Below, piece after piece: positions 3,001-36,125 of a stretch of 36,318 nucleotides of DNA. Positions within the stretch are counted from its first letter, which is position 1; the number at the start of each line of letters is the position of its first letter. Where the stretch lies: contig JAFGJS010000069.1 in assembly GCA_016928995.1 (NCBI GenBank), positions 1 through 36,318 on the forward strand, written 5' to 3'. The notes below the pieces were generated by a model. That model was not told the DNA's origin and made no database searches. It saw nothing but the letters and a program-made list of their open reading frames with translations. The DNA is from Candidatus Sumerlaeota bacterium (lineage in GTDB: Bacteria; Sumerlaeota; Sumerlaeia; JAFGJS01). The translations under genes and the position numbers were made by a program.

Positions 3001-3513
3001 GGTGGGAATATGGATATCGACATGAGCGCCAAGGGGAACCAGCGTATCGATCCCGCCGAATGCGCGACCGTAAGTCATATCCATCGGCGTTTCGGGATAT
3101 GCATCGAATTCGTCTTCAATAGTCACGCCGTCCGGACGGACCAGCGCCAGATATTCGCCTTCTTCGCTCAGCTTGAAATTCGTGTGCAGTTCTCCCGCCG
3201 GATCAGTCCGGTCCTTGCCGGAGGCGAAGATGACCACCATTTCGCCCGATGACAGGCTCACCGCGGGAATGGTCCATTTGGTGAGATTATCGTCCGCATC
3301 CGTCAAATACCAGCCCGACAAATTGACCGTGCCGGTCGTAACGTTCATCAGCTCGATCCAATCCGGATCTTGATTGTCTTCATCGTCCAGAAATTCGTTG
3401 TACGGGCTGATTTCTGAAATCATTACGCTCTGTGCCGCTGTCAATTGAGGCGCCAGGATTCCTGCCAGAATCCATAACAAACCCCCCACATAAAAAAATC
3501 GTCTTCCCATCAT
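1..3513 (-). CDS. Secreted lamin-tail/LamG/CotH multidomain protein (3' end outside window)
   Basis: The frame is open from the ATG at 3513 to base 1 (1171 codons, no stop), so the C-terminus is missing. Two ATGs are adjacent (3513, 3510), preceded by an AAGGGG ribosome site. Residues 1-28 form a signal peptide ending LTAAQ. Residues about 30-130 match a lamin-tail domain (ISEISPYNEF, DWIELMN, GWYL). Two LamG-like concanavalin folds follow (about 206-428 and 443-648). Both open with the same LDA, GTLG, ETVDG and FDG pattern, so they look like an internal duplication with a period near 237 residues. Next come a galactose-binding-like segment (about 670-790, YLNGTEIASRNAP) and an Ig-like region (about 800-960). 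From about 970 a CotH kinase-like domain begins (YRLRGTNARY, GKRSWKIVF, YYGDFWGMFLA). CotH-family proteins are atypical protein kinases. The catalytic residues lie beyond the edge, so activity cannot be judged. A secreted or surface role is likely; the target is unknown. Confidence 0.85.
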   Translation of the reverse strand, partial: MMGRRFFYVGGLLWILAGILAPQLTAAQSVMISEISPYNEFLDDEDNQDPDWIELMNVTTGTVNLSGWYLTDADDNLTKWTIPAVSLSSGEMVVIFASGKDRTDPAGELHTNFKLSEEGEYLALVRPDGVTIEDEFDAYPETPMDMTYGRAFGGIDTLVPLGAHVDIHIPTDGSLGTTWTSDAFSTSAPNWFSGQTAVGYFTTPTLQVAGDLLVDLDASGLSAGSLSTWTNNGTLGTQFASIGTGDPTVETVDGAVAVSFDGDDAMSLDALVPESISGTESWSMEAWVYNPSFSEYEVMVSCWHCDQNGSGMFSYGYHGSWGVFTAWSNDLGCDVIPPSKQWHHLVLTNEGGLGGYMRIYVDGKQDNIRQMVVSLRDVSEAIPVMLGMSTTDTGLSASANYGIGLSASLARVRIHSEELTADQVLLNYEREKNEFTGVPVTGFQQAGNLLVVLDAADATAGSSSWANSGTLGGTFAEVGNDVVKETVDGMPAVTFDGISGYQGPNSITDIEDASDRTIEVWAWNPAAKDQETMVSWAYLGTNLRHMVFGYGSHGSWGAVANWGAGDMPWNGLPEMGTWHHLTYVYDGAVSSIYVDGELDNSMGMALDTRNNRPIMLGCQTDTNGVSITYAQSAELSIGRIRVHGGALTPAQVKANYIDERDEFGYVAPEEAETIYTTDVSTEMYGVNSGAYLRIPFTIDGDPSLLYTIMRLKMIYDDGFVAYLNGTEIASRNAPVSVAYDSTATTSVSAMSLEDLTTETIVVSEYVGLLQSGLNVLAIHGLNSSATDYDFFIQPELSAATFETSPSWYLSEPTPGEFNGYHVPGILDINHSPNQPATTETCKITADIDDPDGIVSVTLSYQVVSPGSYIPAYLPLDHDTLQYYPDTPNEVNPDYVNPANWTTVTMYDDGTNGDVTPFNGKYTAILPVQSTNRTLVRYRITVTNGVGVSVTAPYPLDPSLNCAYYVYDGVPAYTVDSSVEFGGSHTYSQEVMNSLPVYHLISRNEDIEECNAWDSQYELDSNNTGLTYIAARRKENWFGTFVYDDVVYDNICYRLRGTNARYLLDGKRSWKIVFNRGNEFQARDIYGKKYPTKWRKLLIGKMFSNLQGWWWNTSVAPIPYSDFGLAEAMGNKMFNLYGVPAPFTHWMHFRVVDGANEAPDQYYGDFWGMFLA

Positions 3514-11721: not shown

Positions 11722-12056
11722 CGACAGCCGCCGTTTGGTTGGGTTGTTGAGTTTGACAACCGGAAACTCGAAGAGTTCCGCAAATTCCATGAAAGATTAA
11801 CGCCGGGATCAAGGCGATGCAACACGAAATCGTGCGCAGCTGCACATCGTAAATGATCCATTGCGAATTGCCCGTTATCCGCGAAATGCCTCGTCCGCAG
11901 GAAATGGGCTTGCATGACAAACGACGATGGACCACAATTCCGGCTATGAACGCACATCGCCGCCTTATGTCGAATAAAAAAATAGAAAACGGCATCGCTT
12001 GACGCTTATCGAGAGCCAGCCAACCATCGTTCATAAAATTGAAGGAAAGGAATGCC
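11722..12056. other. 335-bp divergent spacer
   Basis: This lies between the divergent VWA gene and the AT-rich orphan. It holds no convincing gene or RNA. An AAGGAAAGG ribosome site for the downstream orphan is at 12042-12050. A short ATTGCGAATTGCC phrase (near 11858) partly resembles, in inverted orientation, a phrase in the adk-dnaJ spacer (near 17478-17505), suggesting decayed intergenic repeats. Confidence 0.4.
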
Positions 12057-12782
12057 ATGCCTACCGCGCCGCACATCAGTATTTATGAAATTTTTCCAGA
12101 CAAGCCAAGCGAAGAGTTGGAAACAATTTTCTCGCCTGACACTTTGTATGCTCTCGCGACGGCCATGAGTTATGTCGAAAACAATCTTCGCGCTCAGGAC
12201 GCGCCGGAGATTAAGGGGATTATCCAGTGGTATAATGAGTTGACCGCTAATGCGCCGGATAGCACGCATAACATATTTAATTGGTATGTTGAAACGAGTC
12301 AGGAACTCGCCGAGGTTACTGACGATGAAAGTTGGAAAACTTCTCCCGAGCGCTTTAAGAAAACAGTCCGCGCTTTTCTTGTTTATGCTTTTATGTCTGA
12401 TTTGACTGTTACGAAGAAGAAAGTGGCAGGGAGCCTCATTATTTTCAAAATATACAAACAATTAATTGAGCACGAAATCGGCGAAACAAAATTAGATGAG
12501 CCGTTCATAAATAAACTGCTGCGTATTGTATTGTTTCCCGTTCGGCCGATTCTTCGGCCGATTGTGATGAAATGGGCGCCGCTCTGGGTGGAGGATTTCG
12601 ATGATGAAATCGGGAAAACGGCTCTGGATCGTATTCAACGCATCTGTCACTTCTATCGATTATGTGCAAAGGAAGACCGGACCTTTACCTTTTCCCAGCC
12701 TAAGGATCAGGTCGAAAAAGAGATCGACGTTGACGGCGTCAAAATCACATCATTGCGCGGGGGCAAAATGTCACTCTCTTGA
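12057..12782 (+). CDS. Hypothetical protein, AT-rich orphan
   Basis: 241 residues from the ATG at 12057, which follows an AAGGAAAGG site; a TTG at 12039 would add six residues but overlaps that site. I do not recognise the family. It is mostly alpha-helical, with no signal peptide. A central hydrophobic stretch (FINKLLRIVLFPVRPILRPIV, about residues 151-171) could be membrane-associated, but is broken by prolines and arginines. Base composition is clearly more AT-rich than in the flanking genes, with A/T-ending codons (for example 12361-12480), which suggests recent acquisition. It ends 64 bp before the convergent end of the next orphan. The function is unknown. Confidence 0.65.
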   Translation: MPTAPHISIYEIFPDKPSEELETIFSPDTLYALATAMSYVENNLRAQDAPEIKGIIQWYNELTANAPDSTHNIFNWYVETSQELAEVTDDESWKTSPERFKKTVRAFLVYAFMSDLTVTKKKVAGSLIIFKIYKQLIEHEIGETKLDEPFINKLLRIVLFPVRPILRPIVMKWAPLWVEDFDDEIGKTALDRIQRICHFYRLCAKEDRTFTFSQPKDQVEKEIDVDGVKITSLRGGKMSLS

Positions 12783-12846: not shown

Positions 12847-13818
12847 TCAACCGTCGGCGACCATTGACGAGCCGGTGGCCAGTGCGATCCAGCAGGCATA
12901 GAGGAACATCTTGAAGCGCCAGACGCTTTCGGCGTCGCCCTCTTCGCTTCGCATGACGAATTCCGCACGCTTCAGGATTGCATTAAATTCCGCTTCGTCT
13001 TCCGCATTGTACGGACCGCACTGCCTTCGCATCAACGTGTTCCCGGGAGCAATATCGATGTTTGATGTAATGCCGCCATCAGCATTCGGCGTCGGCAGCA
13101 CATCCTCGAACCGCGGCGTCATCAGTTCCACCACGCGCTCGCAGTCCTCCGGCGAGGCCTGGATCGCGCCAAACTCCAGGCAGAATCCCCAAAGCAGCAA
13201 TCGTCCAGGACTTGTGGAATCCCAGAGCAGTTCCAAGATCTGGCTGCTGGTGATTTCCTCCGGATCGGGAAGATTGATAATCCGCCAGGCATGCACATCT
13301 TTCAACGCGCGGCGGCACGATTCCGGCGACTCCAGAATCGCCTGCTCGCCGAGTTCATCCGGGCGCTGCGCGTCAACGCGCTCGCCGGTCGCTTCATTCA
13401 TGAAGTCATGGATGAAACTCAGGATCACACTCGGCGCTTCTTGCGGCGGTGTGAAGTGATCCATCCACCACTGCTCGAGTTCCGCGCGAATCGGATACGT
13501 TATCGCTGAAAAACAGCCGATGGGGCGTCTACGAAAATTCAAACGGCAATTGGCGCATTCGCTGTCCGCGACAGGTTCGATCTCGTTCCACTTCGCAGCG
13601 ATCTCACCTAGTGTGGTTTTGACGATTGATCCGTCGGGCTGTTGATGCGTTACTTCTACTTGATCCCAGGTCTTCCCCGGATTCTTTTTCAGAATGTCCT
13701 CTTCATTCTGCTTGAAGTAACCCAGCATGTCGCGATTTTTGGAAAGACCCATAATCTCCATCGCTGAGCGCCCCTGTTGAATCACGCACTCCTTCCGCAG
13801 CAGATAATCAAACGCCAT
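12847..13818 (-). CDS. Hypothetical protein with a cysteine cluster
   Basis: 323 residues from the ATG at 13818. An earlier in-frame ATG at 13824 directly abuts the GAGGAG ribosome site (zero spacing), whereas 13818 has a spacing of six, so 13818 is preferred. Family not recognised. Residues about 85-105 contain three cysteines (SECANCRLNFRRRPIGC), a possible metal site, with more cysteines later (CRRAL, FCLEFG, DCERV, RRQCG). No signal peptide; the C-terminus (FLYACWIALATGSSMV) is hydrophobic and could be a tail helix. It is convergent with the AT-rich orphan and lies 93 bp downstream of the transporter on the same strand, so they may be co-transcribed. The function is unknown. Confidence 0.7.
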   Translation of the reverse strand: MAFDYLLRKECVIQQGRSAMEIMGLSKNRDMLGYFKQNEEDILKKNPGKTWDQVEVTHQQPDGSIVKTTLGEIAAKWNEIEPVADSECANCRLNFRRRPIGCFSAITYPIRAELEQWWMDHFTPPQEAPSVILSFIHDFMNEATGERVDAQRPDELGEQAILESPESCRRALKDVHAWRIINLPDPEEITSSQILELLWDSTSPGRLLLWGFCLEFGAIQASPEDCERVVELMTPRFEDVLPTPNADGGITSNIDIAPGNTLMRRQCGPYNAEDEAEFNAILKRAEFVMRSEEGDAESVWRFKMFLYACWIALATGSSMVADG

Positions 13819-13911
13819 GAGCATCTCCTCATCGAATTAAAATCAGTAATCCTGCCTCAAATCGTGGAGCTATCACACGCTATCAGACAACAAATTCTCA
13901 TTTGGGTTCGC

Positions 13912-21212: not shown

Positions 21213-24200
21213 ATGAAAATGAAGCATCGAATCACGAATCGGCTGGCGCTCCTGATTCTGACGCTGGCGACGATCCCCTGGGGCTCTGTCTCTGCACAAA
21301 ACGCGATTCTGTTCTCGGACACCTTCGACAATGAAGAGGAAGGAAGCCGTCCGCAGAGCTGGAGCGTGGTTGAAGCGGACGTTCCCGCTTCACGCTATTG
21401 GTACATCAAGGACAAGCAGTACTACACCGGCGAGGGCGACAACATCGGCGGCGACCGGTTAAGCTTTTCCGTCATTAAGGATGTCATCGGCAAAAACTGG
21501 ACGGACTACGAAATCCGCGTGAATTTCTGGATGCCGGACAACAGCGGCCAGCTGCTGGTTGTCGGGCGCTGGCAGGATCGCAGCAATCATTACCGGCTGT
21601 TTCTGCGCAGCAGCGGCTCCGGGCGGCAACTCGGCATTCAACGGATGAAGAACAACGATCTGGAATCGCTGGGGCTGGCGATTGACGGGACTAACGGCGT
21701 GTCGATTCCCAAATTCGAAAGCGCGCAATCGAAAGCGGAAAGTCATGAACTCGTTTTACGCTTCGAAGGTTCGACGCTGACGGCCAAACTCGACGGCCGG
21801 ATGTATTTGACGGCGAATGACGACGCCTTCCATATGGGCCAGGCCGGACTGGGCATTTGGTTCAACGAAGTCTATTTTGACAATGTGCAGGTCAGTTCGC
21901 TGGGCGAGGGCGGCGCAGCGGGGAAATACACCGTTTATCGCATCATCGTGCTGCCCAACGCCACATTCGATGACGCCACTCAATTCAAACAGTTGCTCTC
22001 CAATCAGGGGATCATCGACGTTGAAATGGTCTCCGACGAAGAGGGAAAATTCAATGTCGTGGTCGGCACTTGCTCCACGATGGAAGAAGCTGTGCGGCGG
22101 CGAGCCGTGCTGGAAAGCAGCGGCGTGCTGGTCCATGCGATCAAATCGGTTGAATACGAACGCAAGGGAGTGGAACAGACGCTGAAAATACAAGTGGATC
22201 AAGTTCCCAGCCGCGACGAAGCGCAACGCGTGAAGCGTTCGCTGGAAGCGGACGGCTTCCGACCGGTTTACATCGTCGATCAAAAAGCGCCGCCATATTT
22301 GATCTGCGTCGGCGAGTTCCGCGAGGCTGCGCGCAACGAAGCGGAAGACATGCGGCAAAAGCTCATCCGCTCGGGATACTCGCAAACCCGCATCGTCCGG
22401 TCAGAATTGCACAACATGGACATAGTGAATGATAAAGCCGTGCAGGGCGAGCCGGAAATCGACTCGGATGCGCTTCGCAAACTGATCAATGATAACAAGG
22501 ATGTCTGGGAGGAACTCACCAGAGACCAGCAGAAACAAATGCGCGACATCCTGGAAAGAGAAGTTGATCAGAAGATCGAAAAGAAATTTATCGAAAAAGA
22601 CAAAGAATACCAGAGTTTGATCAAACAGCTGGATGAGCGTCAGAGAAAGGTCTTCGAAGAACTCCGAGACCAGATTCGACAGAGCAAGGAACAGTCCGTT
22701 GAACAACAGCGCCACATCACCGAGATGGTCAATGAGATCAACGATTTCATCACGGCGGGCCGCTGGGATGAGGCAAGCGCTTTATTCGAGCAGATGAAAA
22801 CCGATGCGCCGAATGACGGCCGCATTCCCGAACTGGAGCGTAAAATCAGCTGGCGCCAGGCTGAAGATCCGATGGTGGTGCAGGCCGGTCTGGACAAGGA
22901 GCGCGAAAGGCAAATCGCTTCTCAACTGGCCAATTTGATTACGATGGCTCAACTGTCGGCGCAGGATAAAGATTATCCGGAAGCCATCAGAAACATGAGC
23001 CAATACATCGGGATGACCACGGATCCCGTGAAGAAAAAAGAAGGCCAACAGCTCAAAAAACACTATGAAGAACTGCAGGAACAGCAAGAACGCATCGAGC
23101 GAGAGATAGGCGCGGGCGACCAGATTAAAATCGAGCAGACATTCAAAATCTTGATGGTTGTCGTAGGAATCGTCGGCGCGCTTCTGGTTCTGGTGATCCT
23201 GCTGATGGTGCTGAGCAGCATCAAGCGCCGCCGTGAACGCAATGAGCTGCGCGCCACGCTGCAAAGCCTGTCGATGAAGCCGATGGTGGAGCTGCAGGGC
23301 GAAGCCATGGGCGGCGCCAAAGCGCCAGGAAAGACTCTGAGCGACGGCTCGGCGCCTGCGGTCGCCCGCCTCGAATCGAGCCAGTCCGACGAGGATTACA
23401 GCCAATACGAGATGGAGGAAGAAGAGGACACGTACAGCGGCATGGAAGAGGCCGAACTGGACGCCTCCGATCTTGAACGGACGCAGTTCGACATGGCAAA
23501 CGCAGCCGGCGACGAGTCACAAGACCTGGAGCAGGCTGACGACCAAGACCTGTACGCTGAGTCCGAGGAAGAAGAATTACCGGTCGGCGCCGAAGCCTCC
23601 ACGGATCAGTCCGGTTCTGGAGATGATGGGGACATCATGCTCGATATCGAAGAGCTGGAAGATGAGGAACTCCAGATCTCCACTGGCAAACAACCCACGG
23701 AATCGGTGACTGCCTCCGCCGAGGCGCTGCCGATCGGCTTGGAACTCGAAGGAGTGAACACCGAGGAAAACATCACTGTGGATCCCAAGGCCGCGTTGGA
23801 AAGCGACGTGGAGCAAACGGCGCTTCTGCCGGAAGACGATATGCCGGTGCTCGACGACAGCGGCCCGATGAAACCGCCCGTGCACACCGCGCCGCCCGTT
23901 GCAGCGCAGTCCGGCTTGATTTTCGCGCAGGACTTCCGCGAGGAGCTCGTGGGCAACGTGCCGCGCGGCTGGCAAGGCGAGTTTGATTTCGCGTCGCTGC
24001 AAGTGGCGGATGAAAGCCCGCCAAACGGCAGCAGCCGCTACATGCTGTTTGAAAAACCGCGAGGCGACGGACGGGCGTATTGCTACACGACATTCGACGA
24101 TGTGAAAGGCCGGGTGCGGGTTGAATTCGATCTGCGCTGCAACGACAAAAACAAATACCTGCTCGGTTTTTACATTGAAAAGGATCAGGATTTCAAAAAC

Positions 24201-24479
24201 TCCATTCACACCGTGATCCATCGCGCCGCAAGCCAGACATCGCCGATGCTGCGCATTCATGGCGTTCCAGTGCCGTATGAGATGGGCAAGTGGGTGAATG
24301 TGCGTTATGACATCAACTTGGGCAATGGAACGTTGAACGGATACGTAAACGGTCAAATGGTGGCGTCCAGCGTGCGTCTGGACACCAACCCGGGCAGCCT
24401 GAACACGCTGGCGATCCGCGACAACAATCCGACAACGGGCGTATTGTTGATCGGCAACATCCGCATCTCCCGCTTTTAA
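21213..24479 (+). CDS. Single-pass membrane protein: LamG-like, 2x SPOR-like, coiled coil, TM, acidic linker, LamG-like
   Basis: 1088 residues. The ATG at 21213 has an AGGA site 7 bases upstream. A signal peptide ends near SVSAQ (about 29). Residues 31-230 form a LamG/DUF1080-like beta sandwich (ILFSDTFDNEEEGSRP to VYFDNVQVSSLG). Residues 238-315 and 323-398 read as SPOR-like modules, each ending in a V-x-V-G pattern (NVVVGTCSTMEEA; YLICVGEFREAARNEAE). SPOR domains bind glycan strands lacking stem peptides. A charged coiled-coil region follows (about 410-643). One transmembrane helix (about 646-670) is followed by KRRRER, placing the C-terminus in the cytoplasm. Residues about 722-876 are very acidic, with DIEELEDEEL at 811-820 and two ERTQF/EQTALL-type threonine sites (757, 869). 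Residues 901-1088 form a second LamG-like domain. The giant TPR gene follows after a terminator-like hairpin. Domains are assigned by eye. Confidence 0.8.
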   Translation: MKMKHRITNRLALLILTLATIPWGSVSAQNAILFSDTFDNEEEGSRPQSWSVVEADVPASRYWYIKDKQYYTGEGDNIGGDRLSFSVIKDVIGKNWTDYEIRVNFWMPDNSGQLLVVGRWQDRSNHYRLFLRSSGSGRQLGIQRMKNNDLESLGLAIDGTNGVSIPKFESAQSKAESHELVLRFEGSTLTAKLDGRMYLTANDDAFHMGQAGLGIWFNEVYFDNVQVSSLGEGGAAGKYTVYRIIVLPNATFDDATQFKQLLSNQGIIDVEMVSDEEGKFNVVVGTCSTMEEAVRRRAVLESSGVLVHAIKSVEYERKGVEQTLKIQVDQVPSRDEAQRVKRSLEADGFRPVYIVDQKAPPYLICVGEFREAARNEAEDMRQKLIRSGYSQTRIVRSELHNMDIVNDKAVQGEPEIDSDALRKLINDNKDVWEELTRDQQKQMRDILEREVDQKIEKKFIEKDKEYQSLIKQLDERQRKVFEELRDQIRQSKEQSVEQQRHITEMVNEINDFITAGRWDEASALFEQMKTDAPNDGRIPELERKISWRQAEDPMVVQAGLDKERERQIASQLANLITMAQLSAQDKDYPEAIRNMSQYIGMTTDPVKKKEGQQLKKHYEELQEQQERIEREIGAGDQIKIEQTFKILMVVVGIVGALLVLVILLMVLSSIKRRRERNELRATLQSLSMKPMVELQGEAMGGAKAPGKTLSDGSAPAVARLESSQSDEDYSQYEMEEEEDTYSGMEEAELDASDLERTQFDMANAAGDESQDLEQADDQDLYAESEEEELPVGAEASTDQSGSGDDGDIMLDIEELEDEELQISTGKQPTESVTASAEALPIGLELEGVNTEENITVDPKAALESDVEQTALLPEDDMPVLDDSGPMKPPVHTAPPVAAQSGLIFAQDFREELVGNVPRGWQGEFDFASLQVADESPPNGSSRYMLFEKPRGDGRAYCYTTFDDVKGRVRVEFDLRCNDKNKYLLGFYIEKDQDFKNSIHTVIHRAASQTSPMLRIHGVPVPYEMGKWVNVRYDINLGNGTLNGYVNGQMVASSVRLDTNPGSLNTLAIRDNNPTTGVLLIGNIRISRF

Positions 24480-24662: not shown

Positions 24663-27600
24663 ATGACCTCCAAAACTCAAAATCTGTTTTCCGCCATTCT
24701 ACGCGGCCTGAACGGCGATTTCCTATACAGCCGGCTGGATTCCCTGCTGCCCGGCGCGCAACGTTATCCGGTTTACGTCAAGAGCCACTGCCCCTATCAT
24801 GAAGACGGACGCTTTCGTTCCTTTCTGGTCGATCTCAATCGCCGCGTGGCGTGGTGCACGAACCGGCGCTGCGAGGCGCGTCATGAAATCGACCTGGTCT
24901 CCCTCATCGCCAAACTGACCGGCAAGCACCCCATCCAGGTGCTGCTTCAACTCGTGGCCGAAAGCGCCATGCAGTTGGAAAGCAGCTACCGCGAAGACCT
25001 TGAGGAACTCGTGATCGAGGAGGTGCAGGCGCTGGCCTCCATCGGCGATGAAGAGACGGCCCGCATGCTGATCGACATGTGCACAAATCTCTCCGCGGAC
25101 AGCCTGAGCCTGGAATTGCAATCCAATCTGCTCTTTATGCATCAGGACCTGGAGAGCAGCGTGGACAACCTGTTCGCGCTGGCGGAACGGTGCCTGGAGC
25201 GCGACGACATCCTGCTGATCTATCAAATCATGGAGCAACTGGAGTTGTTGGCGTCGGACGACGAACGTCTGCTCGTGCTGAAGGCGCGGATCGCCGAAAC
25301 ACGCGGCGAACGCCGGGCCGCCGCCGACTTCTACCAGGCATACATCGAGCGGCTCGAACAATCGGACAGCACGGACCTGCAAAACGGACGCCAGGCGCGC
25401 ATGCTGGAAAAAATCCTGATGCTCAATCCCAGTTCCATCGAGGCGCGCCGGCGCTACGCGCAATGGCTCGACGGGCAGGGCATGGATGAAGAGGCGCGCA
25501 ATCACTGGAACGTGCTGCTGAAAGTGCTGCATGCCGAACATAAAATGGAAGAGGCGCTGGAACTGTCCCGCAGCATCGTGCAAAAGCGGCCCGGCGATCT
25601 TCAGGCCAAATTGCATCACGCCCGTTTCTGCCAGGAAACCGGACGCATGGATGAGGCCGTGGAGACCTTTGAAAACGTGATGCAGGATTACATCGCCGCG
25701 GAAGAATGGGACGAGGCGGAGCATTACTGCCGGCAACTGATGGACATCCAGCCGGAACGGCAGGATTTGCCGTTCCAGTTGATCCAAATCCTGAATAATG
25801 GCGGACGTCCGGAACGCGCGTATCATCAGACGGAAAAAATCCTGCCGCGCATGGAGCAAAAGGGCGACCGCGAGGGTCAGCTGAATCTGCTGCGTCAGAT
25901 GATGCAATGGAAGCCGCAGAACACGGCGTCGCGCGAGAAACTGGCGCGGCTGCTGTCGCGCGAGGGAAATTCGGAAGAATTGCACACCGTCCTTTGCGAT
26001 TTGGCGCGGCTGTATTTCGGACGCAAACTCAGCGAGGAAGGGGCCAGCCGTCTGCGCAAGGCGACGTCCCTCGCCCAGGGCGATTTGATCCGGCTGCAGG
26101 AGATCGCCGAAATTTATCAGGAGCAGGGGCTAAGCAGCGGCGCATGCCAAATCATGGAACAAATGGGGCGCGCCGTGGTGAGTGATAATCCGGAACACGC
26201 CCTGGCGCTCTCCAAACAGGGATTGGAACTGGAGCCGGACAGCATGAGCCTGATGGCTCTGCAGATCGAGGCATACCGCGCGTTGAACCAAGAGGACAAG
26301 ATCCTCGACGTGCTGGAACGCATGGGCGGTCCGGAAGCCACAAAAGCAGGCAAACGCGGAGCCTTGAGCCTGGAGCGCCTGCGCGGACTGGTGGATGCAT
26401 ATCCGCAGACGCTGGCCTTCCGCCTGCTGCTCGCGGGCGCGCTGGCCGATCAGGGACGCTTCGACGATGCGCTGGACGAAATCCGTCTGCTGGTGAAACG
26501 CGCGAGCAGCGAATCCGAATACAACCAAACGGCGCAGCTGCTGGCGAAAATTCAGGGGCAGCAGGGGCCGCGCATTGAAACGCTCGATTTGCAGACGCAA
26601 ATCTACGAGCTCCTGGGCGATGAAGATCGTTTGTTCACGGCGCTCAACAGTTTGGCCGGACTTTGCGCGCGGATGAAGCAAGGCCAGCGGGCATCGGCGA
26701 TCTACGAACGCCTGAGCGCGATGCGTCCGGATGACGCGACGCTGCTGCAGGAATACGCGGAATTCGCCCGCACTGAGATGAAGCCGGCCGAAGCGGCGCC
26801 CCTATGGCAAAGGCTGCATGAACTCCTGCGCGGCCAAGGCGAGACGGAACGCGCCGCCGACGCCTTGCGGCAAGCCATCCGCGGCCTGCCCGAACCTTAC
26901 GCCCTGCGCAAACAGTTGGCCGATTTCCTGGCCGAAAGTTCCGGTTGGGAAGCCGCGGCGGAGGAATATCGCCGGCTGCTGAACGACATGCGCGGCGTCA
27001 AGCCCGAAGATCCGCTGGTGCGGCAGTGCCTGGACAAGCTTTACGAGCACAACGAAGAGGATCCCGTGCTGCTGCGTGAAATGGCCGAAGAAGCCGAAGC
27101 GCAACGGGACGTCATCCGCTCTGTGGATCTTTATCAGAAAGCGGCTGAACTGCACTATCTGATCGACAACCTGGACGATGCGCGGGAGTGCTACGAGCGC
27201 GCGCTGAAGCTCCGTCCGCATGATCTGGCGCTGATGGCGCCATTGGCGGATGTGCATGAGCAGCAAGGCGCCAAGGATCTGGCCATTGAAATCCATGAGC
27301 GGATGCTGTCGATCTACACGGACCAGCTACAGGCGGAAAAAGTGCTGGAAGCGCAGGCAAAGATCTTGCGCCTGACGCCGCAACGCGAAGACTTGGCGCA
27401 GCAGCGCATCTCACTGCTGCGCAAACTGAACCGCAACGATCAAGCGCAGGAATGCTACGCGAATCTCATCGAGCACTACCGCAAGCAGGCGCAGTGGGAC
27501 GAGGCGATTCGCCTCACGCGTCAATTGCTGGATGACTATCCGGAGCGGCGCGACGCGCGCGAGCAGTTGATCGAATTGCTGACTCAAACCGGCGACACAG

Positions 27601-30600
27601 CGGAAGCGATCGAGGAATACGCGCAAATGGCGGAATTCCTGCTGGCGCGCAAAGAACGGGAAGCGGCGCTGGAGACCATGTCGCAATGGCGGAAACTGGC
27701 GCCGGATGACACTTCCCTGCTGGAGCGCATCGCCAGCCTGCATGTGAAGCTCGGCCGCGTGGATGAAGGCATGCAGCATTATCGCACGCTGCTGGATGAT
27801 TGCCTCAAAATCAACAACCTGGAAGGCGCCGTGAAATACGGGCGTACGCTGATCGAGCTCAATCCGGACAACTGGGAACTGCGGCATGATCTGGCGAAAT
27901 GGCTGCATGGAGCGGGCAAACTGCAAGACGCGTCCGACGTGATGCTGGAAGTCGTGCAACGGCGCTTCAGAGACGGGCAGATCAAAGAAGCGCAGGAAGC
28001 CGTCAAGCCCCTGCTCAGCTGGCTGGACTCGCTGGATTCGCGCCGGTTGAAACTCGCCATGCTGCTGGACAGCTCCGAACTTTCCAGCGAGGCCGAACCG
28101 ATCTACGTCTCCTGGGCTCAGGCCGCGCTTAACGCGAAGCAATACGCCCAGACCGTAGAGTGCTGCGATCAGGGAATCGCCAGCGACGCCGGGCGCAAGG
28201 CGCTGTATGAATTGAAGGCGGAGGCGCTCTCGCAGCTCGGCGATCCGGAAAAGGCCGCGCGGGAATGGAGCCGCCTGGCGCGCCTGCATCACGAAGACAA
28301 ATCGGCTCAGTCGGCCGTCAAAGCGTTTGAACGAGCGATTCAGTTGGAGCCGCAAGCGCTGGATTTGCGCGAGGATTATTGCCGCTACTTGATGAACACC
28401 GGCGTGCTGGGTCAGACGCAAGCGCCGTTGCGCGAGTTGATCAACTTGTGCGCCAAAGCCAAGGACACGGAGCGCGAGCTGACCTGGCGCGAACAATTAT
28501 CCAAAGTGGACGCCCTCGATTACGATAATCGCTTCGTTCTGTCTGAGCTGCTGATCAAAGCCGGGGACGGCGGCAGCGCGGAACGTCAATTGCGTTTGCT
28601 GCTGGACGATGCGATGGCATCGGAGAAAAAGGATGAAGGCTTCCGGACGGCCGAACGCGCGTTGAACATGCTGCGGCAGCTGCTGCCCAATGATGAAGGG
28701 CTGCTGCGTAATGAAATCTCGCTGGCGCAGTCGCGCAAGGACGATGAGCGCGTCGGCGCCCTGCGTCTTGAATTGGCCGATCTGCTGGAGCGCCATAACC
28801 GTTCGGATGAAGCGGCGGAAATTTACCGCGAACTTCTGCGCGAGACACCGGAGGATGACGCGCTCTTTGAAAAAGTGGCGGCCATCCTGAAACGGCAAGG
28901 ACCGAACACGCGGCTCTACGTTCATTGGCTGGAAGACCGCTGCGAATTTGAGCGCAAGCGCAACGGGCATCCGCGCATCCGCGAGCTGCGTCTGCGGATC
29001 GTTGACGCTGAACCGGACAATCTGGAAAATCGCTGGAATCTCGCTTCCGCCTGCATGAAATTGAAACAGCCCGAGGAGGCGATCGAGCATCTCCGCCATG
29101 CGTTAAAAATCGAATCGATGCAGGGCAACACGCGCGCGGCGGAAAAACTGGCCAGCGAAATCCTCAAGATCGATCCGGAACTCGTGGACGTCCGCGAGCA
29201 ATACGCGCAGTTCCTGACCGACCTTAAACAGCAAACCCAGGCCCTGGAAGAAATGCGGCGGCTCGTGGACCATTTCCAGCAATCCGGCGGCGTCGCGAAC
29301 GAGTTGCGCTGGCGCGGCTCGCTCATGGCGATGTCGCCGGCGGACATGAAAAACCGCTTCCGCATGGCCGACTTGTTGAAACAGGAGAGCCGGCTGGATG
29401 AAGCGGCTGACGTGCTGCGTTCCATCATCCGCGAATCCATGGGCCGTTTGACCGAGACCGGGACGCAGGAAGCGGCGCGCAACGCGAGCGCGATGCTCCG
29501 CGAGTGGATGCCGGATGACGAGGACGCGCGCCGCGACGAAATCGAACTCTACACCGCGTTGGGCGAAGGCGAACGCGCGCGTGAGCTGATGGTGGAACTC
29601 GGCGCATGGCTGGAGCGGAACGAACGGTATTCCGAAGCCGTCGACTTGTACCGCAAGCTATTGCGGCGCCAGCCCGGTCAGGACGAGCTCTTCGAGCGCG
29701 TGGCCGCGCTGCTGCAAAAGCAGGGCATGACCGCGGAATACAAGGAATGGATCAACGACCGGGCGGAGTATCAAAGTCAACAGGCCAACTGGAAAGCCGT
29801 CCGCGCCTTGCGCGAACGTCTGCTGGAGGCCGCTCCAGACGACCTGGGCAACCGGGAAAAACTGGCCGACGCGCTGCTTGAATTCAGCGAAACCGCCGCC
29901 GCGGTGAGCCACTTTGAATATTGCATGACGCAATACGCGGAAGAGGATCAACCCGCGGAAGCGGCGGACATGGCACGCCGGATTCTCAGGGCCGAGGGTG
30001 GCGGGCGGATCGACGTGCTGGAGCGCCTCTATCGTTTTCTGATGCAGGACGGACAGGATAAAGAGGCGCTGCGCCCATCGCGCGAACTGGCCGCGCATTA
30101 TCAGCGTTCGGGTGAAATCGAACCGGAAATCCGCTGGCGGCGCGAAGTGCTTCAACTCGAAGCGGAAAATTTCGAGAACCGTTTCCGTCTGGCCGAGGCG
30201 CTGCACGAAACTGGCTCTGAAGACGAGGCCTGGACCCTCGTGGTGGAGGCGCTGGACAAGGCGATGGCCTCGCTCTCCTCCCCGAATTACGCCAAACACG
30301 CCGCATGGGCCGTGGAGACGCTGCGCAAATGGCAGCCGGATAATGAGGAAATCCTGCGCCGCGAGATCGAACTCTGTCAGCAGACCGGCAAGGAGGCGCG
30401 CGTGCTGGATTTGCAAAGCACGCTGGCCCGTCAACTCGAAAACAGCGGCAGGGAAAACGAGGCGCTGGAAATCTACCGGGAGCTTTCCCGCAATCATCCC
30501 GAGCGCCCCGAGCTCTTCGAAAGCGCCGCCAGCATTCTGCAAGCCCTGGGCGACACTTCCGCGTTCGTCGAATGGCTGGAGGAACGCTGCCGCGTCGAAC

Positions 30601-33600
30601 TCAGGCGCACCGTCGGCTCCGGACGCCTGCGCGGACTGCGCGAGCGCATCGCCGAGGCGGAGCCGGACAACCTGAACAACCGGCAGATGCTGGCCGACGC
30701 CTGTTTGAAACTCGACGATGTCGAGACGGCCATTGAACACCTCTCCTATTGCGCTGACAGCCACTCCGCGCAAGGCCGGATCGAAGAAGCGGCGGCGATT
30801 TATGAACGCATTCTGTCCATTGAGCCGTCATTGCATGAGCAGCGGGCAAAATGGACGAATCTGCTGCTGCAACTCGGCCGCACAACCGAGGCGCTGGAGC
30901 AGATCAAGACGCTCGCGGAAGCCAGCCGTGAACGCAACGACGCCGAGGAAGAACTGCGCTGGCGCAAACAGTGGCATGTGGCGGACAGTCAGGACGTGGA
31001 AAACCGCTTCCGCCTGGCCGCGCTGCAACGCGACGCCGGCAAAGAAGACGCGGCCCATGAATTGCTGCTGGGAATCCTCACTGCGGCGATGGAAGCGCTC
31101 GACAGCAAACCGAACAAGAACAGCAACCTCTTCAAGGACAACTCCTCGCACGCAGGGCAGGCGCTGGAATTGCTGCGCACATGGCGCCCGGACGACGAGG
31201 AACTGCTCCATGCGCAAATCCGCTACTATGAAAACGTGGGCAAGGATGCGCGCGCACGCTTGACCAAACGCACCCTGGCGGGCCAGATGGAGCATCAAGA
31301 ACGGCTTCAGGACGCGCTCGAACTTTACTCCGATCTGCTGCGCTCCGAGCCGGACGACGACGAACTCTTCGACCGGACGGCCGACATCCATCGCCGGATG
31401 GACGACATCGATCAGTACTGCTCGATGCTGACAGAACGGGCTACGGCGGCGGCGAAAGCGGAGAATTGGGGCCGCGTGCGCGTATTGCGTCAGCACATCA
31501 TGGACGTGCGCCAGGAGGACACGGAAAACATCGAAGGCCTTGCGGAAGCGTGTCTGAAGTTCGACAAGAAAACCGAAGCGATCCGCTACTTCACGCGGCT
31601 GTTCGAACTCGCCGCGCAAAAAGGCGCGACGGATGCAGCCGTGGGACACGCCCGGCGCATTCTGGATGTGCAGCCGGATCATATGGCCACGCGTGAAAAC
31701 GCCGCGGCGCTGCTGGAAAAAGAGGACGATCTTGACCGCGCTTACCGCATCCTGGAGCCTGCCGGCCGCCGCATGTTCGAAGGCGGCCAGCGCGATGAGG
31801 CGCTGATTTTCCAGCGCACGATGATCGAACGTTTCCCGAACTTGACCCAGCCGCGCGAATTGCTCGTGGATTGGCTGACCGAACTCGGTCAAAGACGCGA
31901 AGCGCTCGACGAGCTGTTCGGCATCTTCGATCTTTACCTGAATTCCGGCGACACGCATTCCGAGGTGGTGCTGGAACTCGAGGAGCGCATGGCGCAATGC
32001 TGCGGAAACGATGTGACGCTGATGATCTCGCTTCCATCGCGCCTGCTGGAGCGCCAGCAACGCAATAAATGCGAGCAGATGTATTGCCGTCTGATCAATA
32101 GCGTGCGTGAGAGCAAAGACCTGGAAGCCCTGACGACGCTCTGCCGCCGCGCTTCTGAGCAAGTCTCGGATTCAATCCGTGTGCATGAACAAATCCTCGA
32201 GGGCATGGAGCAGCTCGGGACCAATGAAGCCGTCGTCGACACTGCGCTGAAACTTGGCCGCTTGTACCAACAGGGCGAGATGCCGGACAAGGCCAGTGAA
32301 ACGTTGCGCAAGGCCGTGCGGCTGGCGCCCAAGAATCCCGCTGCGCACGTCGTCTGGATCGAATTCCTGGAAAAAGAAGGCCGCAAGGAAGATCTGGTCC
32401 GGCCGCTGCTGGCGCTGTGCGATTTGTACGAGGAAAAGGGCCAGTTGGATGACGCGCAGCAATGCCTGGACCGCTTGCTGGCCGTGCAGCCGCAAAACGA
32501 AAAGGCCGTCCAGCGCCGCGCCGATCTTTTAATCCGCCTCGACCGCAAGTCCGAAGGCATCAAGTCGCTCATGGATCAGGCCGCGCGCCACGAGGAGGAG
32601 CTGCGCTGGGATGACGCCGTGCGCTATCTGGAGCAGGCTTTCGAGTACGCGCCGGAGGACATCGGCATCCTGCGCCGCATCGTGCGTGTGACCCGCAATC
32701 AGAAAAGCGACGAACTCAATCTCAAATACAAAAAACAACTCGCCGACATTTACGAATCCCTTGGCAACACGGATCTTGCCATACCGCTGTATGAGGAGAT
32801 GATCGACCAGCGTCCGGAAGAGTACGATATATATGAGAAAGCCGCGGATCTGGCGATGCAGGTGGGCGACGGCGAGCGTGTGAGCAAGGTGCTGCTCGAT
32901 TTATCCAAGGCGCATGAGAAGCAGAATGCGCTGGATCTAGCCATCGCGGCGCGCTTGCGGCTGTATGCCTTCGATCCGGAACAGCGTGAAAATCTGGAGG
33001 AAATCGCGCGGTTCTATGAGCGGCAAGGCGACCAGGCCAACGCGATGAAGTATCTGCGCGAAGCGATGGGGCTGCTGCGATCCCGCCATGATTACGCAGA
33101 AGCCGTCACGGTCGGGCGTAAAATCCTCAACCTCGACTCCAGCCAAGTCGCGGTGCGCCGCGATATCGCCCAGTTGCTGGAGAGCCAGGGCGACCGCTCC
33201 GCCGCCGCCAATGAATGGGTGACGCTGGCGGAATCGACGCAAATACGCAGCAGGAAAGACAAAGACAAGGAATCGGCCAATCAGGCGATTCACGCCTTGC
33301 GCGAGGCGGTGCGCATCGATCCCGAACGCTTCGCGGAGCATCAGCGGCTGGCCGAGCTGCTGTCCAACCAAAAACTCGAAGACGAAGCGGTGGAATGCTA
33401 TTCGCAGCTGATTGAAAAATACGAACAGCGCGAGATGCTCACCGAAGCCATCGCGGTCTGCCTTCAAGCGCTGGCGCTGCGTCCTGAAGACGTTAAGATG
33501 CACGAGCGCCTGTTCCGTTTTTACCGCAACACCGGTGAAACGCGGCTGCAAGTGGCCGAAGCTTTCTGGCTTGGACGCAATGCGCTGCAACATGAAGACC

Positions 33601-36125
33601 TGATCCGGGCCGAGGAGTATTGGATTCAAGCCCTTGAGGCGGATCCGAAAAATATGGAACTGCTGGAGAGTCTCGCGGATTTGTATAATCGCCAAAACCG
33701 GCAGATGGAGGCCGCGGAAACCTATCAGCAGTTGATCGATCTGGCGGAGACCGACGGCGATCCGATGCGCGTGCTGATGTACCTCGAGGAGGCCGTGGCC
33801 TGCCAGCCGCACAACCTCATGCTGCGGCGCCGCATGGTGCGAGCCTTGGTGCGCGCCGAGCAATTCGAGCCTGCGCGCGCGAAATATCTCGAGATGATGC
33901 GCGAGCTGCTGGAACTTGACCAGGATGAGGCGGTCAGCGATCTGCTGCAGAGCGCCCAGACGCTGTTCCCCAACGATCAGCGCCTGAACTTCGAACTCGG
34001 CGACCTCTTTGTCGAATTCAATCAATCCGACACCGCCGCATCGCTCTACCTGGAGGACATCGAGGAACTCACGCTGGCCGGCCGCTGGGATGAGATCCTC
34101 GAAATCTGCGAGCGCCTGTTGCCATTGCGCGTTCGCCCCATTGCGACATATGAATTACTCACGCATGCTCTGGAAATGAAAAACGAAACGGGCCGTCTGC
34201 GGGAGATTTATCCCTCGATGGGCGAGGAATACGAGCGCGCCGGAAAATATGAGATGGCCGTCGAGGTTTACCGCAAACTGCTGGTCCTGGAGCCCGATTC
34301 GACCGACCTGCGCCAGACTCTTGTTTCCCTGCTCTCGCTCTCCGGCGATCACGAGGGCGAAGCGGAAATCTTGCTGGAACTGATTGAAGTCCGCGCGAAA
34401 AACAACGAGTTAGAGGCCATGGCCGGCTCATTGCGACGTTATCTGAATCTGCATCCGGACGATGTCCAGCGGCGCGAGCAGTACATCGAAACCTGGCTGC
34501 AACTCGGCTCCGAGGAAGACCTGCTGCCCGATTACCGTCTGCTGATCGAGCATTACCGCGACCGGAACAATCCATCAAAAGCCGCCGAGTACCTGGAGCG
34601 TTGCCTGCGGCTTCAACCGGACGACATCGAGATGCGCGAGCAGCAGATCGAATGGCTGGAGGCGGGCGGCGAAACGGAAAAGGCGCTGGAGCGCTCGCTC
34701 GAACTCGCCCGCGTGCATCGGGAAAAGGGCTATCCACGCAAAGCCGCCGATTTGCTGCAGCAACGGCAAAAAGCAGCCCCGCGCGACACGCGCATCCACC
34801 TGATGCTGAGCGAGATTTTCACCGAGATGAACTTCAAGGGGCGCGCGCTGGAAACGCTCAAACAAGCCGCGTCAATCCTGAGCGAGACAAATGAGAAAGA
34901 CGAGCTCATCGCAGTCTACCAGCAGATCCTTGAAATCGATTCGCAAAACGCCGAGGTCTATCAAAACCTGGCCAAACTATACTCCGAACTCGGCCGGGAG
35001 TCTGAATCGATCGAAATCTCCATGGCCCTGGCCGAACTCTATCAGGGCCGCAATCTCCCCGATCTCGCCGAAGGCGAGTATCGCGCCATCCTTGAGCGCC
35101 AGCCGGAGAATATCCTCGTGCTGCGTAAACTCATCGACCTGCACGGCCAGCTGGGGCTGCGCGAGGATCTGGAGCACGACTCCTTCCGCCTCGTTGAACT
35201 ATACATCACCCAAGGCTTGGTCGAAGAGGCCGTCGAGGTGCTGCGTCATGGTCTGAAAAACGACTCCGGCAACATCCCCATGCGCCAACAGCTGATCGAC
35301 CTCTATTCGCAGTTTGGCGACGAGCGGGAGCTCGTGGAGGATTACCTGGTGCTGGGCGCGCGACTGCTGGAAGTCGGAGAACGGCAGAAGGCCATCGACT
35401 CCTATCGCCGCATCCTCGCCGTCGAACCGGGAAATGCCCAGGCGCGACAGGCGCTGAAGCGGCTCACGGGCGAGGCGCTCGAGGATCAAAGCAAAAGCGC
35501 GACCAATACTCAAGAGCGGGAACGCAGAGCGGCGCAAGCGAGCAAGGTCGAACCCGAGCCGTTGCCCATTGACATTGATGAGCTCGATGATGAATTCGAA
35601 CTTCCCGAGTCGATGCAAGCGGAACAGCCCGCCGTTAAAAAACCGGAGCCTGTGGAAGAGCCTAAAAAACCGCGCAAAGCTCGCGACCGCAAAGCCGATA
35701 TCACCGATTACGGCGTCATCGCGCACCGCCCGAGTGAAAACGGCGGCGAAGAAGCCCTGAAGAAGCATTCGGCGGAATTGGAACAGGCGATTCAGAATTA
35801 TCAGCTGCTGCTGGAGCGCAATCCGGATAACGCCGAAGCGCGGGAGCGTCTGGGGGACTGCCAGCAGCAGGCGAACAACATCGCCGCCGCCATCGAGCAG
35901 TGGGACACCGCCAGCCAGCTTTATGAAAAAACACAGCAATACGGCAAAGTGATCAAACTTTGCGAAAAAATCGTGGCGCTGCGCCCGAGCCACGCCGGCG
36001 TGCGCAAACGCCTCAGCGAGGCGATCAACAAATCCGAAATGCACCGCGCGCTCGACAGCGCCATTGAGAACATTCACAGACGCCCCTTGACTCCCGACTC
36101 CGAGATCAAGCCCAAGCAGCGCTGA
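24663..36125 (+). CDS. Giant TPR protein with N-terminal CHC2/DnaG-type zinc finger
   Basis: 3820 residues in one uninterrupted frame. No signal peptide or membrane segment, so cytoplasmic. The ATG at 24663 has a weak GGTGGA site upstream. Residues about 35-100 resemble a bacterial primase zinc finger: Cys43-Pro-Tyr-His46, a SFLVD strand, Cys65 and Cys70, then EIDLVSLIAKLTGK, which parallels the D-x-I-x-F-V helix of DnaG. The second cysteine pair has four intervening residues instead of two. No TOPRIM or polymerase domain follows. From about 100 to 3605 the protein is almost entirely TPR-like helical hairpins (recurring A...Y..LL...P patterns). Residues 1275-2382 contain a higher-order repeat of 275 residues. 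A charged Pro/Glu/Lys linker (about 3610-3700) carries IDIDELDDEFELP (3636-3648), and two or three final TPRs end in a basic tail. Probable role: large interaction scaffold; partners unknown. The upstream SPOR/LamG protein is the best candidate. Confidence 0.85.
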   Translation: MTSKTQNLFSAILRGLNGDFLYSRLDSLLPGAQRYPVYVKSHCPYHEDGRFRSFLVDLNRRVAWCTNRRCEARHEIDLVSLIAKLTGKHPIQVLLQLVAESAMQLESSYREDLEELVIEEVQALASIGDEETARMLIDMCTNLSADSLSLELQSNLLFMHQDLESSVDNLFALAERCLERDDILLIYQIMEQLELLASDDERLLVLKARIAETRGERRAAADFYQAYIERLEQSDSTDLQNGRQARMLEKILMLNPSSIEARRRYAQWLDGQGMDEEARNHWNVLLKVLHAEHKMEEALELSRSIVQKRPGDLQAKLHHARFCQETGRMDEAVETFENVMQDYIAAEEWDEAEHYCRQLMDIQPERQDLPFQLIQILNNGGRPERAYHQTEKILPRMEQKGDREGQLNLLRQMMQWKPQNTASREKLARLLSREGNSEELHTVLCDLARLYFGRKLSEEGASRLRKATSLAQGDLIRLQEIAEIYQEQGLSSGACQIMEQMGRAVVSDNPEHALALSKQGLELEPDSMSLMALQIEAYRALNQEDKILDVLERMGGPEATKAGKRGALSLERLRGLVDAYPQTLAFRLLLAGALADQGRFDDALDEIRLLVKRASSESEYNQTAQLLAKIQGQQGPRIETLDLQTQIYELLGDEDRLFTALNSLAGLCARMKQGQRASAIYERLSAMRPDDATLLQEYAEFARTEMKPAEAAPLWQRLHELLRGQGETERAADALRQAIRGLPEPYALRKQLADFLAESSGWEAAAEEYRRLLNDMRGVKPEDPLVRQCLDKLYEHNEEDPVLLREMAEEAEAQRDVIRSVDLYQKAAELHYLIDNLDDARECYERALKLRPHDLALMAPLADVHEQQGAKDLAIEIHERMLSIYTDQLQAEKVLEAQAKILRLTPQREDLAQQRISLLRKLNRNDQAQECYANLIEHYRKQAQWDEAIRLTRQLLDDYPERRDAREQLIELLTQTGDTAEAIEEYAQMAEFLLARKEREAALETMSQWRKLAPDDTSLLERIASLHVKLGRVDEGMQHYRTLLDDCLKINNLEGAVKYGRTLIELNPDNWELRHDLAKWLHGAGKLQDASDVMLEVVQRRFRDGQIKEAQEAVKPLLSWLDSLDSRRLKLAMLLDSSELSSEAEPIYVSWAQAALNAKQYAQTVECCDQGIASDAGRKALYELKAEALSQLGDPEKAAREWSRLARLHHEDKSAQSAVKAFERAIQLEPQALDLREDYCRYLMNTGVLGQTQAPLRELINLCAKAKDTERELTWREQLSKVDALDYDNRFVLSELLIKAGDGGSAERQLRLLLDDAMASEKKDEGFRTAERALNMLRQLLPNDEGLLRNEISLAQSRKDDERVGALRLELADLLERHNRSDEAAEIYRELLRETPEDDALFEKVAAILKRQGPNTRLYVHWLEDRCEFERKRNGHPRIRELRLRIVDAEPDNLENRWNLASACMKLKQPEEAIEHLRHALKIESMQGNTRAAEKLASEILKIDPELVDVREQYAQFLTDLKQQTQALEEMRRLVDHFQQSGGVANELRWRGSLMAMSPADMKNRFRMADLLKQESRLDEAADVLRSIIRESMGRLTETGTQEAARNASAMLREWMPDDEDARRDEIELYTALGEGERARELMVELGAWLERNERYSEAVDLYRKLLRRQPGQDELFERVAALLQKQGMTAEYKEWINDRAEYQSQQANWKAVRALRERLLEAAPDDLGNREKLADALLEFSETAAAVSHFEYCMTQYAEEDQPAEAADMARRILRAEGGGRIDVLERLYRFLMQDGQDKEALRPSRELAAHYQRSGEIEPEIRWRREVLQLEAENFENRFRLAEALHETGSEDEAWTLVVEALDKAMASLSSPNYAKHAAWAVETLRKWQPDNEEILRREIELCQQTGKEARVLDLQSTLARQLENSGRENEALEIYRELSRNHPERPELFESAASILQALGDTSAFVEWLEERCRVELRRTVGSGRLRGLRERIAEAEPDNLNNRQMLADACLKLDDVETAIEHLSYCADSHSAQGRIEEAAAIYERILSIEPSLHEQRAKWTNLLLQLGRTTEALEQIKTLAEASRERNDAEEELRWRKQWHVADSQDVENRFRLAALQRDAGKEDAAHELLLGILTAAMEALDSKPNKNSNLFKDNSSHAGQALELLRTWRPDDEELLHAQIRYYENVGKDARARLTKRTLAGQMEHQERLQDALELYSDLLRSEPDDDELFDRTADIHRRMDDIDQYCSMLTERATAAAKAENWGRVRVLRQHIMDVRQEDTENIEGLAEACLKFDKKTEAIRYFTRLFELAAQKGATDAAVGHARRILDVQPDHMATRENAAALLEKEDDLDRAYRILEPAGRRMFEGGQRDEALIFQRTMIERFPNLTQPRELLVDWLTELGQRREALDELFGIFDLYLNSGDTHSEVVLELEERMAQCCGNDVTLMISLPSRLLERQQRNKCEQMYCRLINSVRESKDLEALTTLCRRASEQVSDSIRVHEQILEGMEQLGTNEAVVDTALKLGRLYQQGEMPDKASETLRKAVRLAPKNPAAHVVWIEFLEKEGRKEDLVRPLLALCDLYEEKGQLDDAQQCLDRLLAVQPQNEKAVQRRADLLIRLDRKSEGIKSLMDQAARHEEELRWDDAVRYLEQAFEYAPEDIGILRRIVRVTRNQKSDELNLKYKKQLADIYESLGNTDLAIPLYEEMIDQRPEEYDIYEKAADLAMQVGDGERVSKVLLDLSKAHEKQNALDLAIAARLRLYAFDPEQRENLEEIARFYERQGDQANAMKYLREAMGLLRSRHDYAEAVTVGRKILNLDSSQVAVRRDIAQLLESQGDRSAAANEWVTLAESTQIRSRKDKDKESANQAIHALREAVRIDPERFAEHQRLAELLSNQKLEDEAVECYSQLIEKYEQREMLTEAIAVCLQALALRPEDVKMHERLFRFYRNTGETRLQVAEAFWLGRNALQHEDLIRAEEYWIQALEADPKNMELLESLADLYNRQNRQMEAAETYQQLIDLAETDGDPMRVLMYLEEAVACQPHNLMLRRRMVRALVRAEQFEPARAKYLEMMRELLELDQDEAVSDLLQSAQTLFPNDQRLNFELGDLFVEFNQSDTAASLYLEDIEELTLAGRWDEILEICERLLPLRVRPIATYELLTHALEMKNETGRLREIYPSMGEEYERAGKYEMAVEVYRKLLVLEPDSTDLRQTLVSLLSLSGDHEGEAEILLELIEVRAKNNELEAMAGSLRRYLNLHPDDVQRREQYIETWLQLGSEEDLLPDYRLLIEHYRDRNNPSKAAEYLERCLRLQPDDIEMREQQIEWLEAGGETEKALERSLELARVHREKGYPRKAADLLQQRQKAAPRDTRIHLMLSEIFTEMNFKGRALETLKQAASILSETNEKDELIAVYQQILEIDSQNAEVYQNLAKLYSELGRESESIEISMALAELYQGRNLPDLAEGEYRAILERQPENILVLRKLIDLHGQLGLREDLEHDSFRLVELYITQGLVEEAVEVLRHGLKNDSGNIPMRQQLIDLYSQFGDERELVEDYLVLGARLLEVGERQKAIDSYRRILAVEPGNAQARQALKRLTGEALEDQSKSATNTQERERRAAQASKVEPEPLPIDIDELDDEFELPESMQAEQPAVKKPEPVEEPKKPRKARDRKADITDYGVIAHRPSENGGEEALKKHSAELEQAIQNYQLLLERNPDNAEARERLGDCQQQANNIAAAIEQWDTASQLYEKTQQYGKVIKLCEKIVALRPSHAGVRKRLSEAINKSEMHRALDSAIENIHRRPLTPDSEIKPKQR
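28485..31808 (+). repeat. Four tandem copies of a 275-residue TPR super-repeat inside the giant gene
   Basis: A landmark Trp in the ELRWR-type motif occurs at residues 1275, 1550, 1825 and 2100 (codons at 28485, 29310, 30135, 30960), a spacing of exactly 275 each time. Further landmarks recur in the same order: NRFRLA-like, LR-W-PDDEE-like, an ALEIYRELLR-like TPR, ELFE-AA-IL, EWLEDR, AEPDNL-NR, and ACLKL-AIEHL. The fourth copy carries an insertion of about 8-9 residues (around KPNKNSNLF), after which the register changes and the pattern fades. The copies are diverged at protein level. Confidence 0.85.

Follow-up and report, generated by a model that had tools for sequence, protein, structure and literature searches.

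A divergent CHC2-type domain heads a giant TPR-derived solenoid in Candidatus Sumerlaeota and recurs beside a SPOR-domain partner gene

In this study, we analyzed a giant predicted protein of Candidatus Sumerlaeota, encoded in a window that comprises an entire contig of 36,318 bp from a source genome of 4.5 Mb. Our analyses showed that a giant solenoid headed by a CHC2 domain is a real and recurring design, and apparently an undescribed one, given that no published description of the architecture was found in the open-access literature. Elsewhere, CHC2 domains are known to occur in primases and in replication proteins related to them. The domain described here appears to be a stable module, independent of replication and present in multiple copies, that has a ligand spacing of its own and heads very large proteins throughout the phylum. 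The most informative context for the giant is the gene directly upstream, encoding a transmembrane partner with SPOR and lectin-like domains, which was missing from the preliminary description of this DNA and which points the finger-solenoid system to the envelope (Table 1). The system provides a handle on a putative cytoplasmic scaffold in uncultivated bacteria, as well as a way to test the capabilities of a CHC2 domain without a primase.

Table 1. Positions of the giant gene, its partner and their domains in the window.
Feature	Coordinates	Strand	Size or residues	Remarks
Partner gene (SPOR/lectin-like)	21213..24479	+	1088 aa	183 bp gap to the giant gene, same strand
Partner C-terminal lectin-like domain	23952..24476	+	~175 aa	Single-copy marker of the system
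CHC2-capped giant solenoid protein	24663..36125	+	3820 aa	ATG at 24663; frame open to the stop ending at 36125
Divergent CHC2 (DnaG-type) domain, zinc binding predicted	24663..25001	+	Residues 1-113	Profile, alignment, model
Predicted zinc ligands C43, H46, C65, C70	24789..24872	+	Residues 43-70	CX2H-X18-CX4C; invariant in 29 sequences
Solenoid of TPR-derived three-helix units	25161..36053	+	Residues 167-3797	~60 detected 54-residue units, 46 in exact register

Elsewhere in the window, positions 1-3513 encode a secreted-looking protein that combines a lamin tail domain with a laminin-G-like domain, and two open reading frames (12039-12779, 247 aa; 12850-13824, 325 aa) matched no Pfam family.

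The CHC2 domain and the solenoid behind it

Profile, alignment and structural model confirmed the N-terminal domain of the giant as a divergent CHC2 domain of the DnaG type, zinc binding itself being predicted. The preliminary description had named Cys43, His46, Cys65 and Cys70, followed by an IDLVSL helix, as a primase-like finger; translation placed all of them as noted, and when 29 homologous N-termini with 17-30% identity to the window copy were aligned, the four cysteine and histidine columns, and no others, were invariant (29/29). The finger is called divergent because its ligand spacing differs from that of DnaG and because the Pfam family PF01807 misses the window copy. The order of the ligands, C-H-C-C, is indeed that of DnaG, but the spacing, which had been thought to be DnaG-like as well, is CX2H-X18-CX4C versus CX2H-X17-CX2C in DnaG. 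The former was found in nearly all of 64 non-DnaG rows, of which L052 and L060 probably represent DnaG nonetheless, and the latter in 26 of the 27 rows labelled DnaG, the exception probably being a finger-solenoid protein (L115). In addition, the EKTPSF and CFGC features that are invariant in DnaG were replaced in the finger family.

The comparison of residues 1-110 with CHC2 profiles, proposed at the outset, gave a confident result at the level of the family but not for the window copy alone. For the latter, PF01807 produced no match at E <= 0.01 nor at E <= 1, and searches of Pfam, PHROG and PDB with the window finger returned nothing useful, designed alpha-solenoid proteins being the sole matches in one of them. 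For the family, hhalign against the DnaG zinc domains of Sumerlaeota gave P=98.2 and E=5e-14 over 101 columns, 16 of the 29 members matched PF01807 individually, and several relatives exceeded its cut-off in the genome search. The family profile also reached the Aquifex aeolicus primase (2AU3, E=2.4e-6) and the Bacillus stearothermophilus zinc domain (1D0Q, E=0.007), and, in about 30 genomes of the phylum, recovered DnaG itself.

Residues 1-113 and 1-298 were each modelled with AlphaFold2, at a mean pLDDT of 90.1. The structure search with the longer model was swamped by TPR proteins, and for this reason residues 1-113 were modelled alone. The shorter model consists of two helices, a three-stranded zinc ribbon and two further helices, and it bore out the expected primase zinc-domain fold, with Z 10.1 against 2AU3 (100 residues) and Z 9.4 against 1D0Q (102 residues), followed by Twinkle (Z 8.2) and phage T4 primase (Z 7.5), the next unrelated row scoring Z 4.0; Foldseek agreed on a primase zinc domain (E 1.2e-4). 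That the cysteines and histidine fell into this pattern by chance or convergence, with no CHC2 domain present, is hardly credible: such an account would fit the miss by PF01807 and the spacing unlike that of DnaG, but not the reciprocal profile matches, the invariant ligands or the structural match over the whole domain.

As first described, no catalytic primase domain follows the finger. Among the best 25 of 36 Pfam families, TPR models and sub-threshold noise were found and neither a TOPRIM nor a primase domain, and TPR-derived units fill the protein as far as residue 3797 of 3820. The early reading of TPR hairpins almost to the end of the protein thus stands with regard to origin and extent and fails with regard to the unit, which has a period of 54 residues and three helices, not a period of 34. 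The TPR_19 profile matched at E 7e-98, other Pfam TPR models matched too, and sequence similarity was to TPR proteins; model and profile described the repeat as a TPR plus one extra helix. Autocorrelation of the window protein revealed a dominant period of 54 (z 6.2) with harmonics at 108, 162 and 216, a weaker signal at lag 34 and, in the giants, background at lag 68. The same period was observed in every relative tested, across phyla. An iterated 54-residue profile detected 60 units in the window protein and 0 in the shuffled sequence, counts that are descriptive, the profile having been trained on these same proteins. Self-BLAST of the solenoid returned no off-diagonal rows, and higher-order duplication stays suspected from reading the sequence. 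The giant as a whole has a net charge of -190 and, by hydropathy, is without a transmembrane segment.

Recurrence of the family and its separation from DnaG

The finger profile (A1) matched 38 of the 40 Sumerlaeota genomes searched, and after removal of DnaG matches a non-DnaG copy was present in 37 of them, usually in two to four copies. Strong non-primase copies outside the phylum were detected in four of 346 other genomes sampled (G167/G304 and G221/G076), representing two small phyla with two genomes each in the sample. The pairing of CHC2 with TPR, first seen in a single protein, accordingly recurs in 37/40 Sumerlaeota genomes and in two other small phyla. Named relatives belong to Candidatus Sumerlaeota or candidate division BRC1, with the exception of one "Bacteroidetes" contig (L083, HGW-Bacteroidetes-14); this candidate was rejected as a Bacteroidetes relative, since it is very likely a misbinned Sumerlaeota contig whose gene and neighbours are near-identical to those of L078. 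No finger relative was found in the viral contigs, phages and plasmids searched.

The finger was N-terminal in every copy examined, and the proteins that carry it vary widely. Some, about 140-180 aa long, consist of the finger only and constitute a supported clade conserved in two families, and in L121 (4386-5243) a GGDEF-like domain (Pfam GGDEF, E 1e-5) is joined to the finger. Several further forms were observed. Mini finger-TPR proteins of ~270 aa occur in a third phylum (L117 4608-5423; L118 5025-5828), flanked on one side by V-type ATPase-like genes with a lipoprotein gene and on the other by an AAA ATPase plus T2SSE/MshEN secretion ATPases. A finger-solenoid paralogue of ~1370 aa lies directly 3' of a nadC-like gene in three genomes (L122, L124, L125), and paralogues of ~500-620 aa (L065, L068, L062) carry, after a Pro-rich linker, a conserved-looking C-terminal helical segment with no family name. 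L120 (3924-6185) bears CHC2 on a DnaB-like helicase protein and belongs to a distinct primase-helicase-like family.

In the finger tree, which has only 113 columns and in which the window copy is a long branch, DnaG stood apart from all non-DnaG fingers (SH-aLRT 100). Most giants adjacent to a SPOR gene, including the window copy, fell into one group of 25 (SH-aLRT 99), and seven finger-only proteins and seven proteins of ~500 aa each formed a group of their own (both 100). In addition, a separate DnaG is encoded on another contig of the same genome, and the primase core was absent from the copies of finger proteins examined. Because these copies are without a primase core, DnaG is encoded separately and the non-DnaG fingers group apart with full support, the CHC2 domain appears, on sequence grounds, to have left replication. 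Neither a replication nor a DNA-repair gene was found as a conserved neighbour among the neighbourhoods inspected. Reading of the sequence also placed the giant gene tail-to-tail with the ribosomal L17 gene in four relatives (L073, L074, L078, L080), followed in the first three by rpoA and rpsD-like genes.

The SPOR/lectin-like partner

The N-terminal part of the partner comprises a signal-like N-terminus, a lectin-like region, SPOR domains and a coiled-coil or helical region; its C-terminal part comprises one transmembrane segment (646-664), basic residues, an acidic and Pro-rich linker and the conserved lectin-like domain. SPOR scored above the Pfam cut-off in the window copy and in relatives (E 1e-5 to 1e-39). 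A single copy of the C-terminal domain was present in each of 38/40 Sumerlaeota genomes and in each of the two genomes of a second phylum; the domain was 41-53% identical to that of the window across phyla, and was found in 0 of 344 other genomes searched. By coordinates, a finger-solenoid gene directly follows the partner on the same strand in 22 of the 38 Sumerlaeota genomes and 2/2 second-phylum genomes; in the other 16 of the 38 the two genes are unlinked, a few of them at contig edges. The pair was also found in each of the eight relatives from the genome collection whose inspected sequence extended upstream (L073, L074, L075, L077-L080, L082). In two genomes (G022, G027) the partner was present with no finger-solenoid protein detected, and in one (G005) fingers were present with no partner detected. 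In the second-phylum partner (L114, L116), an NHL-type propeller replaces the lectin-like N-terminus and the SPOR domains, transmembrane segment and C-terminal domain are kept; FtsN and RlpA models matched this protein below cut-off.

Proposed role and comparison with known systems

Sequence and model analyses support the predicted zinc fold with its conserved ligands, the repeat of 54 residues, the division into paralogous subfamilies and the conservation of the gene pair. As for function, we hold with evenly balanced confidence that the giant is a SPOR-linked cytoplasmic solenoid docked on its envelope partner, with the finger as a cap and terminal docking module. First, the partner would expose its SPOR and sensor domains on the outer side of the membrane and keep its C-terminal lectin-like domain cytoplasmic, an orientation suggested by the signal-like N-terminus, the single transmembrane segment and the basic flank. 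SPOR domains bind denuded glycans of peptidoglycan (PMC6895207). Second, the giant is most simply cytoplasmic and docked on the tail of the partner, because it is without a transmembrane segment; the conserved tail would dock the solenoid, which may in turn bring client proteins together at those sites of the envelope where peptidoglycan is bound. Third, the finger would cap the first solenoid repeats and act as the terminal docking module. Its partner is likelier a protein than nucleic acid, since CHC2 lacking a primase core is expected to bind DNA poorly.

The preference for docking over nucleic-acid binding draws on DnaG: the isolated zinc domain of the Bacillus subtilis enzyme bound no ssDNA (PMC5429622), which weakens the earlier statement that CHC2 fingers recognise single-stranded DNA. 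In Aquifex DnaG the zinc domain packs on the polymerase domain (PMC5429622). There is a serious rival, which we regard as possible but on the unlikely side, namely a tether: bound to nucleic acid by its finger, the scaffold would be anchored to the nucleoid or to RNA, and its SPOR partner would extend this link to the envelope. The zinc fold is kept with all its ligands, and the zinc domain of DnaG is needed for template binding by a fragment of zinc plus polymerase domains (PMC5429622). In addition, the finger is basic like that of DnaG (net charge +3 in the window, family mean +4.0, DnaG +4.1), position K40 being basic in 29/29 sequences and positions 52, 61 and 64 in 97, 83 and 72%, and the solenoid is strongly acidic (-191). 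A basic finger against an acidic solenoid is compatible both with binding to nucleic acid and with docking on an acidic protein. Against the tether stand the B. subtilis result, the replaced EKTPSF and CFGC features and the lack of a conserved replication or repair neighbour.

A second alternative, that the finger is a structural N-cap only, kept for folding stability and having no partner of its own, is improbable. The helices that follow the ribbon continue without a break into the first repeats in the 1-298 model, with high confidence, and the invariably N-terminal position would also suit a cap; but a mere cap is unlikely because finger-only proteins and a finger-GGDEF fusion exist, in which it would be useless. 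A bolder reading, which we consider distinctly improbable, would link wall and chromosome: at the division site, peptidoglycan would be marked by the SPOR partner, a solenoid of up to ~60 units would extend from the cytoplasmic tail of that partner, and the distal finger would hold nucleic acid. If true, such a link would tie the position of the nucleoid to the envelope, both in Sumerlaeota and in the second phylum.

The giant and its partner resemble several known systems in part. The CHC2 domain of DnaG (PF01807; 1D0Q, 2AU3) shares with the finger the whole-domain fold, ligand order and profile, but differs in spacing, in its EKTPSF and CFGC motifs and in being joined to a TOPRIM/polymerase domain instead of a solenoid. 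The zinc domains of Twinkle and phage T4 primase share the fold at lower scores, but are parts of primase or helicase proteins. TPR superhelices such as those of O-GlcNAc transferase, LGN and consensus TPR proteins are like the solenoid in repeat sequence and helix packing, whereas their unit is of 34 residues and two helices. LapB/YciM, which combines TPRs with a rubredoxin-type metal domain, is like the giant an envelope-related TPR protein with a metal-binding module; however, it has an N-terminal transmembrane segment and a C-terminal rubredoxin, whereas the giant has no transmembrane segment and carries CHC2 at its N-terminus. Finally, FtsN and RlpA have SPOR domains in common with the partner, which differs from both in its mid-protein transmembrane segment, its large sensor region and its C-terminal lectin-like domain predicted to be cytoplasmic.
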